64,000 nucleotides of DNA, taken from contig NZ_JACHCC010000008.1 in the NCBI RefSeq assembly GCF_014207135.1, forward strand, positions 186,001 through 250,000, read 5' to 3'. The stretch is from Pedobacter cryoconitis. GTDB taxonomy: Bacteria > Bacteroidota > Bacteroidia > Sphingobacteriales > Sphingobacteriaceae. A program made the position numbers and the translations under genes. The notes beneath the pieces are model-generated. The model ran no database searches. It was not told where the DNA came from and was given only the letters and a program-made list of their open reading frames with translations. This document shows positions 32,722-34,605 of the stretch, piece after piece (positions within the stretch are counted from its first letter, which is position 1; each line of letters opens with the position of its first letter).

Positions 32722-32767
32722 AAGTAAAAAAGGCCATCTGAATCGATTCAGATGGCCTTTTTTACTT
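32722..32767. terminator. Perfect 46-bp palindromic terminator
   Basis: Exact palindrome centred on aatcgatt, with GC-rich arms (ggccatctgaatc) flanked by A-runs and T-runs, so it can terminate on both strands. It follows the cystatin-like gene on the minus strand. Confidence 0.8.
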
Positions 32768-32777
32768 ATAGATCGTA

Positions 32778-33065
32778 TTAAATTCTTATAATACCTGTAA
32801 TATAAGGTAATCCCTGTAGGGGAGCATATATTTCAACAATAGCTTCCCAAATTACATCAGCTGGTGGTATTGAAGCTGTACATTTGAAACGATAATTTTT
32901 TCCCGCTACAACCTGAGTTGAAACAGACTGAGGGGTGTACTTAACACCTAAATGACCTTTTAAAGCCTCCTCGAATACTTTTTTGTCATTTGGTGTAAGA
33001 CTGTGATAAGGACTCCATCCTCCTAGCGATGTTGCTACTGGACTTTCAGCAGTTTGATTTGACAT
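32778..33065 (-). CDS. Cystatin-like cysteine protease inhibitor
   Basis: 95 residues, no signal peptide. Three cystatin contact elements are in order: an N-terminal GG (GGWSPYHSL), a single helix (PNDKKVFEEALKGHLG), then the first-hairpin motif QxVxG as TQVVAGKNYRFKC, and a second hairpin with QGLPYITG. The QVVAG-x-NY wording is the same as in animal stefins (established knowledge of that family). Expected role: tight inhibition of papain-like proteases. No such protease is in the window. Monocistronic, with its own palindromic terminator. Confidence 0.72.
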   Translation of the reverse strand: MSNQTAESPVATSLGGWSPYHSLTPNDKKVFEEALKGHLGVKYTPQSVSTQVVAGKNYRFKCTASIPPADVIWEAIVEIYAPLQGLPYITGIIRI

Positions 33066-33354
33066 GATTTCTAATGTTTGAATTTCTTTTCCTACTCGTA
33101 AGGCTTTTCGGAAAACGCCACGTTTATTAAAGTGGTTTCTGTCTCCACTTTCATGTCTGTTAACAAGAAAAATATATAATATAAAAACTTGTATATCAAT
33201 GCATTTACATCATCTAAGCTAAGACAAATAGCTCGCTCTGATTCAAGTAGAAATACGGCTTATACAAATCAGGTAGAATCCCCTGGTAACACAATTATTT
33301 TGTAACCTTTGACCCATTCAGGCAAAAATAAATCTGGGTAAATTCATAAGAATT

Positions 33355-34605
33355 ATGGAAAAAACAGATATTTTTTTAGCAGAAATAATATCAGATATTG
33401 AAAGTTCTGATATTAGCAGGATAGAGAAAAAAACAAAGCATGAGCCTTTTGAATTGTGGTCTGATCCGGCTTTATTATCAGATTTAGCAGGAAATACCGG
33501 GGCATTCTTTGTCAGGGCAATCCTGAGTAAATTAAATATCAATGAGCACCGGGTATTAAGATGGAGACTAGAGAATAAATACAGACAATATGAGGTCTTA
33601 AATCATTATATCCCAGGCTGCATGGCCAGATCTATTAGTTTTTCACAATTACTAAATGAACCTAACGGGGCTCAAAGGATTAGAGAACTATGTGAAGATG
33701 GCTATTTTGTTAAGTCAACTCTTGGTCACAGTACGGGCAGGCTAAATAGTTTTGACAGAACAGCTGAATTAGAAAATATCATAAGCTCTTATCAGCATGA
33801 AGATGATAATCTGCAAAAATGGATGTTGCAGGAAAAATTAGATCTTAAAGAAGAATTCAGGATCCACACCTTTAACAGAGATCTTATATATGGTGTAACC
33901 TTTATCATGGCGGGTGAAGATTCATCAATAAGTATAGCTGCAGAAGCATATGTCACTGAAATTCTTAAAAAATTACCGGATACAATCCTGAACGGAACTT
34001 TAATCGGCTGGGACATCGGGATAACAACTAATCAGAAATTCTATATAATAGAGACAAACATAACCGGTTTCCATCCGGAATTTCATCGCGGATTTCAAAC
34101 AAGCGGATATTTTGGCGACCCTGATTACGGATCAATTATGTGTGCATGGCTGAACAACTATTTTAAGAACAATTATAATGTCTCGGTTGGGTCTGTTGAA
34201 ACTACTTTATTTCAAAGCAGTAGATTCTATGAGAAATTCATGTTTTACACATCCCTATTCAGGAATGAACACATGGAACTCCTGAAAAATAAAGCGAAAG
34301 GAACCAGGGTGTCAGCAATTATATATTTAGGTGAAGATATAAACCTCCTGTTAATTACATTATTAAGATATTTTCAGGAAGAAGACTTTGCCAAAAGATA
34401 TTATCTCATTACAGATAAAAAATATGCTACAGAGTTGAGTGGTTTACTCGCTAAGAATGATTTACTCCGTGTAGTCTCTGAGGACAGCTTATTCACAGTA
34501 GCTCAATATATGCTAATCAAGGAGCTGAAATATGAAAGACGAAAACGGATTAGCTTTTATCATACCATGCGCCTGATTAAAGAGGATTCTTGTTTTATGA
34601 TCTGA
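33355..34605 (+). CDS. ATP-grasp-like protein of unknown role
   Basis: 416 residues. An ATP-grasp-like core is suggested by DGYFVKSTLGHSTGR (lysine and Gly-rich loop, about 115-130), LQEKLDLKEEFRIHTFNRD, and GWDIGITTNQKFYIIETN near 225, where the acidic and Asn residues would bind metal. Residues 1-100 are a helical pre-grasp region, and about 320-416 form an extra alpha/beta domain (VSAIIYLGEDINLLLITLL) that I cannot assign. It may ligate or phosphorylate a small molecule or peptide. Divergent from the cystatin-like gene with 289 bp between. No precursor peptide is evident. Confidence 0.6.
   Translation: MEKTDIFLAEIISDIESSDISRIEKKTKHEPFELWSDPALLSDLAGNTGAFFVRAILSKLNINEHRVLRWRLENKYRQYEVLNHYIPGCMARSISFSQLLNEPNGAQRIRELCEDGYFVKSTLGHSTGRLNSFDRTAELENIISSYQHEDDNLQKWMLQEKLDLKEEFRIHTFNRDLIYGVTFIMAGEDSSISIAAEAYVTEILKKLPDTILNGTLIGWDIGITTNQKFYIIETNITGFHPEFHRGFQTSGYFGDPDYGSIMCAWLNNYFKNNYNVSVGSVETTLFQSSRFYEKFMFYTSLFRNEHMELLKNKAKGTRVSAIIYLGEDINLLLITLLRYFQEEDFAKRYYLITDKKYATELSGLLAKNDLLRVVSEDSLFTVAQYMLIKELKYERRKRISFYHTMRLIKEDSCFMI

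Follow-up and report, generated by a model that had tools for sequence, protein, structure and literature searches.

The stefin (type-1 cystatin-like) gene of Pedobacter cryoconitis is best explained as encoding a cytosolic single-domain stefin which forms a one-gene unit headed by a DUF805 RNA leader, whereby leader and gene moved together between phyla and the main target of the inhibitor is foreign, a reading which, taken as a whole, is regarded as probable. The features of the locus within the window, i.e., the whole 64,000 nt stretch of DNA that was analysed, are summarized in Table 1. An earlier sequence-only reading of this DNA had pointed to the rarity of the protein but had overlooked the conserved RNA leader, although the latter tells more than the protein does.

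Table 1. Features of the stefin locus (window coordinates).
Feature	Position	Strand	Basis
Stefin (type-1 cystatin-like) gene	32778..33065	-	ORF, ATG start, 95 aa; relatives, AF2 model, PDB matches
Codons for the QVVAG first hairpin loop (residues 51-55)	32902..32916	-	Alignment; coordinates counted from the ORF
Hairpin with T-run 3' of the stefin stop, probable terminator	32722..32768	-	-30.4 kcal/mol, z -10.5
DUF805 RNA (Rfam RF03081, cis-regulatory), stefin 5' leader	33085..33153	-	70 bits vs 51.1 gathering score
Possible promoter TTGATA-17-TATATT, 5' of the DUF805 RNA	33171..33199	-	Weak; 10/12 matches

The ORF of 95 residues that the sequence-only reading had proposed was found to be real and was placed on the minus strand, which had not been given before. 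It is more than a chance ORF, as 34 relative loci were identified in the genome contig collection and profile matches to cystatins were obtained. Within its translation, LGGWS, TQVVAGKNY and the second hairpin (APLQGLPYITGI) follow each other in the order described earlier, and no signal peptide is visible by eye, which agrees with the cytosolic location claimed for the protein. Likewise, the gene stands alone as had been stated, since on its 3' side a hairpin with a stem of 21 bp and a subsequent T-run probably terminates transcription (a feature absent from the list of a separate pattern scan) and since its 5' neighbour, starting at position 33355, is divergent. This adjoining gene (33355-34605, plus strand) encodes 416 aa and looks ATP-grasp-like by eye, and parts of it match a second place on the same contig (C8:313571-314442). 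The RNA match covers the full RF03081 model (1-68) and ends 19 nt before the stefin ATG on the same strand, being the only DUF805 RNA copy found in the genome. Promoter-like sites of the quality of the one listed upstream occur four times in the stretch as compared to 4.5 times in shuffles.

The AlphaFold2 model of the stefin (pLDDT 89.7, pTM 0.78) is a high-confidence model of one helix (residues 25-35) on a four-stranded sheet (42-53, 55-66, 71-81 and 88-94), with cystatins as its best structural matches, just as the cystatin assignment of the sequence-only reading implied. These matches comprise Dictyostelium cystatin A2 (8gqq; Z 10.6, rmsd 4.2), CsStefin-1 from Clonorchis (5zc1; Z 10.3, rmsd 2.6) and, as solved in complex with papain, human stefin B (Z 10.1, rmsd 2.6, 79 aligned residues), whereby Foldseek gave one match at E <= 0.001 and the VIA list reorders the Foldseek result and hence is no independent search. 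On the sequence level, the best single-sequence match in the PDB is the Fasciola type-1 cystatin 6i1m (E 7.6e-5), and when a profile of 61 bacterial domains was compared with the PDB, all 16 sequences matched at E <= 0.01 were cystatins, with human stefin A ranking best (E 1.3e-5). Pfam alone nearly missed the family: the Cystatin model PF00031 scores 12.6 bits for the window protein and hence stays below its curated cut-off of 22.2 bits, which is an annotation threshold and no structural definition, and matches 15 of the 61 family members at E <= 1 (best E 0.0009). Stefins are by definition about 100 aa long and possess neither a signal peptide nor disulfides; the window protein comprises 95 aa with a single Cys and lacks a signal-like N-terminus by eye. 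Its QxVxG motif is found as QVVAG at residues 51-55 and its N-terminal glycines at residues 15-16. Residues Q51, G55 and N57 are invariant in the 61 aligned bacterial domains, V53 and G15 are each kept in 90% or more of them, and the sequence QGLPY forms part of the loop that precedes the last strand, where residues vary across the family. Cys62, which locates to the third strand, is likewise present in 90% or more of the 61 domains from several phyla and is replaced by Ser or Ala in three proteobacterial copies. Chagasin-type inhibitors (I42), which possess an all-beta immunoglobulin-like fold, do not fit, as the model consists of a helix and a four-stranded sheet and no chagasin family was among the Pfam results. 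Sequence profile and predicted fold thus support the earlier reading that the protein is a bacterial stefin.

Fold alone is no proof of protease inhibition, as it is also found in monellin and in SQAPI, an inhibitor of aspartic proteases, both of which match with Z scores of 8-8.8, below those of the cystatins. As a consequence, the protein might represent a cystatin fold that serves other purposes, e.g., as a monellin-like binding or storage protein, an idea to which the existence of further binders with the same fold that do not act on cysteine proteases lends some plausibility, as does a second stefin copy at one locus (L004) that reads QAIDG where QVVAG is expected. This idea is considered rather improbable, given the conservation of Q51, G55, V53 and G15 described above and given that the gene is, as judged by dN/dS, under purifying selection. 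Ratios of 0.07-0.66 were obtained among close-group gene pairs with dS < 2.5, and values > 0.45 were restricted to pairs that include L261 or L265, the two most divergent copies. The QAIDG copy is a tandem second stefin (L004:5472-5753) which lacks the DUF805 RNA and perhaps possesses a changed specificity.

The rarity claimed for the protein stands, as it was identified in one of 145 genomes of its own genus, one of 399 of its own family and, within the phylum sample, 26 of 395 genomes, belonging to 8 of 170 genera, but bacterial stefins have been described before (PMC2784779). The relatives include two Flavobacterium beibuense genomes, Pseudomonas brassicae, Planctomycetes and many rumen Clostridia, and the stefin of genome G766 (L043) shares 91% identity with the F. 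beibuense one. Three relatives are encoded on plasmids, namely a conjugative, transposase-rich Bradyrhizobium plasmid and plasmids of Aureibacter and Persicobacter, the same three being recovered with a second query; no stefin relative was found among the viral contigs and phage records searched. Within the stefin tree, which is based on 85 columns and whose bootstrap had not settled, the window protein resides in a clade of 13 rows (support 99/96) of single-domain, signal-less stefins from Bacteroidota, Pseudomonas and the Bradyrhizobium plasmid. This clade does not stand alone in lacking a signal, as L048 and one copy at L054/L239, which lie outside it, look signal-less too. In many metagenome-assembled genomes of rumen Clostridia (L008-L035), two to four stefin domains are combined in one protein that bears a signal or resembles a lipoprotein, and such proteins are possibly shields against ciliate cysteine proteases.

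Within this clade, the DUF805 RNA was identified upstream of 10 of the 13 stefins. In seven of these it scores over the Rfam cut-off and in three below, with L044, L055 and the second L004 copy lacking it. Besides the window, the loci at which the RNA directly precedes the stefin are L004, L005, L039, L049, L050, L052 and L053 over the cut-off and L003 (43.8 bits), L045 (47.1 bits) and L043 (42 bits) below it. At the gathering score, none of the 44 stefin-type loci outside the clade (7 + 17 + 20 loci) possesses the RNA. At G716:C2:198283-198637 (L238, L254) a decayed stefin was identified that still has a degenerate DUF805 RNA upstream. Among Pseudomonas, the RNA occurs in 6 of 318 genomes (P. 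brassicae included), and all six copies precede a stefin; as this survey started from the RNA, stefins without it lie outside its reach. P. brassicae has a single DUF805 RNA in its genome, as has the Bradyrhizobium plasmid, in each case before the stefin, and the two most divergent Pseudomonas stefins (L261, L265) have kept GGW and QxVxG although they share only 34-39% identity with the window protein. The seven proteobacterial RNA copies share 88% mean identity (21 pairs), as compared to 60% and 58% in the 100 nt flanking them upstream and downstream, respectively, whereby the latter value is lowered by the contig end at L257 and raised by the shared locus of L261 and L265. All seven possess, between RNA and ATG, the sequence GGAG, which we take to be a Shine-Dalgarno site and which is absent from the window and L258 copies. 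The apparent joint transfer of RNA and stefin into Pseudomonas and a conjugative Bradyrhizobium plasmid, with the RNA conserved next to diverged flanks and followed by this GGAG, speaks for an RNA which is active outside Bacteroidota and which is more than a ribosome-binding site of that phylum. In the plasmid collection only the Bradyrhizobium plasmid matches the RNA, and a blastn search of the phage collection returned no match to it. A clean empty site was sought among the relatives fetched, with ORFs examined in L242, L243 and L246; in G015 the deaminase and ATP-grasp neighbours are found without a stefin, with other genes between them. Taken together, the presence of the RNA before 10 of 13 clade stefins, in six of six Pseudomonas cases and at none of the 44 loci outside the clade makes RNA and stefin look, as far as sequences tell, like one horizontally moving module.

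A patchy, horizontally moving distribution and a cytosolic place would also fit an orphan immunity gene, i.e., a stefin which protects against papain-fold toxins injected by competing bacteria. Since no toxin gene was found in the ORFs around the window copy, L003, L004, L005 and L246, a role as immunity protein is thought to be unlikely.

In Bacteroidota, where the RNA mostly heads other genes, stefins account for 5 of its 158 distinct copies over the cut-off. The element, which takes its name from DUF805 genes, is known from Bacteroidetes and was reportedly first described in a 2017 survey of 224 candidate structured RNAs. It was detected in 59 of 145 genomes of the own genus (51 over the cut-off) and in 68 of 365 genomes of the phylum sample (54 over the cut-off). 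Of the 158 distinct copies, 156 were catalogued, the stefin loci L049 and L050 being left out, and 155 of these precede an ORF of 30 aa or more, the ORFs falling into 59 clusters. With starts from -6 to +120 allowed, 134 of the 152 ATG starts in the catalogue locate 9-19 nt past the RNA. When one member from each of 40 clusters was named with Pfam, AHSA1, PEGA, SCO4226-like, aquaporin, DUF1842, PixA, DUF805, beta-propeller and TM2 families were found, next to lysine oxidase LodA, phosphatidylserine decarboxylase, a bacteriorhodopsin-like protein, an M43 peptidase and a scramblase. In other Bacteroidota, the RNA heads a calpain-family (C2) peptidase gene in L125 (G644) and a papain-family (C1) peptidase gene in L129 (G539), so that the same leader is found on such peptidases and on stefins, in different genomes. 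Several RNA-led proteins, among them L107 (a six-member cluster), L109, L146 and L150-L152, have no Pfam family and may represent new families of the same regulon. In the 158 sequences, both helices of the RNA covary: 61 both-side-changed cells were counted for the first helix, as compared to a maximum of 34 in shuffles, and nine as compared to a maximum of three for the second, with relatedness being ignored in this control. A candidate pseudoknot helix was dropped, as it yielded four cells versus seven in shuffles. Likewise rejected was a fixed Bacteroidetes promoter before the RNA, as TAnnTTTG occurs within 80 nt in 17 of 155 cases as compared to 150 of 3120 control windows and has no fixed position. 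A DUF805b RNA with 33.1 bits (cut-off 35.6) was identified at L041:7248-7282, about 700 nt before the Persicobacter stefin, and is followed by another ORF.

The absence of a papain-like protease near the gene, noted by the sequence-only reading, was corroborated by a genome search for C1 peptidases, which gave two Peptidase_C1 matches, both on other contigs. These comprise 338 aa with a lipobox-like start and 398 aa with a signal-like start (by eye), and both hence look exported. Among Bacteroidota, a C1 match was found in all 12 carriers tested (10 of the 26 carrier genomes of the phylum sample plus two F. beibuense genomes, with 15 f18 genomes and the decayed G716 left out) versus 7 of 13 non-carriers, a difference with a one-sided value of about 0.01, calculated by hand and uncorrected for kinship. 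Among Pseudomonas, it was found in two of six carriers and in 2 of 15 genomes without the RNA, grouping here being by RNA and not by stefin. The stefin may be understood as an endogenous safety inhibitor that blocks, within the cytosol, own C1 peptidases which are mis-sorted or leak before export. Own C1 peptidases that look exported are what would be expected if a cytosolic guard were needed, and the excess of C1 matches among Bacteroidota carriers leans towards an own target, although the comparison is confounded by kinship. Yet four of the six Pseudomonas carriers have no C1 match, hence an own C1 target is not required, and the other 144 genomes of the genus, whatever their C1 content may be, do without a stefin. 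A safety inhibitor is therefore held to be conceivable but not likely. The apparent export of the own C1 peptidases, together with the Pseudomonas carriers that lack a C1 match, favours a foreign target, against which counts that a stefin without export signal would not obviously meet a foreign protease.

According to the preferred reading of a leader-controlled stefin with a foreign main target, the DUF805 RNA would control translation or stability of the stefin mRNA, a role suggested by the fixed short distance at which the RNA ends before start codons. The stefin formed would act as animal stefins do and occlude the active site of papain-like cysteine proteases, inserting into the cleft its N-terminal glycines and both hairpins, of which the first carries QVVAG. 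Its main target would be foreign rather than an own C1 peptidase, e.g., a digestive cathepsin of a protist or host or a papain-fold toxin of a competitor. In a bolder version, which we consider very unlikely, the RNA would be a portable switch that senses a signal common to all bacteria, such as ribosome state or a metabolite, and would constitute, together with the stefin, a self-contained cassette crossing phyla with its own control. The switch would induce stockpiled defence proteins, i.e., the stefin and, in some Bacteroidota, PixA inclusion proteins, lysine oxidase and lectin-like proteins, during predation or lysis, and freed stefin would then disable the cathepsins of the attacker.

Taken alone, the protein adds one member to the bacterial stefins, which have been in print since 2009. 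As compared to animal and protist stefins (human A and B, 8gqq, 6i1m and 5zc1), it shares the fold, the N-terminal glycines, QxVxG, a size of about 95-100 aa and the absence of a visible signal peptide, and possibly also an LP-type second hairpin. It differs from them by an identity of 10-30% in the fold alignments and by Cys62, which most bacterial members possess. With the tandem stefin lipoproteins of rumen Clostridia and Planctomycetes (L006-L035) it has the domain family in common, but these are signal-bearing, mostly comprise at least two domains and possess no DUF805 RNA at the gathering score. Kordis and Turk (2009, PMC2784779) found bacterial stefins to be rare and patchy, with Bacteroidetes among the carriers, and suggested that the genes had been acquired by horizontal transfer and that the proteins inhibit cathepsins of the host. 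The stefins reported here are likewise rare, patchy and presumably transferred, but in the sections considered no RNA leader appears, nor are Pseudomonas, Flavobacterium and Bradyrhizobium among the genera named with stefins, while the transfer unit described here includes a regulatory RNA. No paper that joins the DUF805 RNA with stefins or cystatins was found in the open-access literature searched. The RNA is the same as elsewhere and takes the same place just before start codons, but here it also heads stefins, which beyond Bacteroidota are the only genes it was found to precede (318 Pseudomonas genomes and the plasmid collection). Thus an ordinary family is found in an unusual setting, since the moving unit appears to consist of a regulatory RNA and a stefin. 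Both halves had been orphans, as the stefins had a proposed role and the DUF805 RNA had no known signal; their link gives the stefin a regulon from which its role may be read and allows inhibitor and RNA to be studied side by side, whereby an RNA that works outside Bacteroidota would be amenable to tests in convenient laboratory strains.
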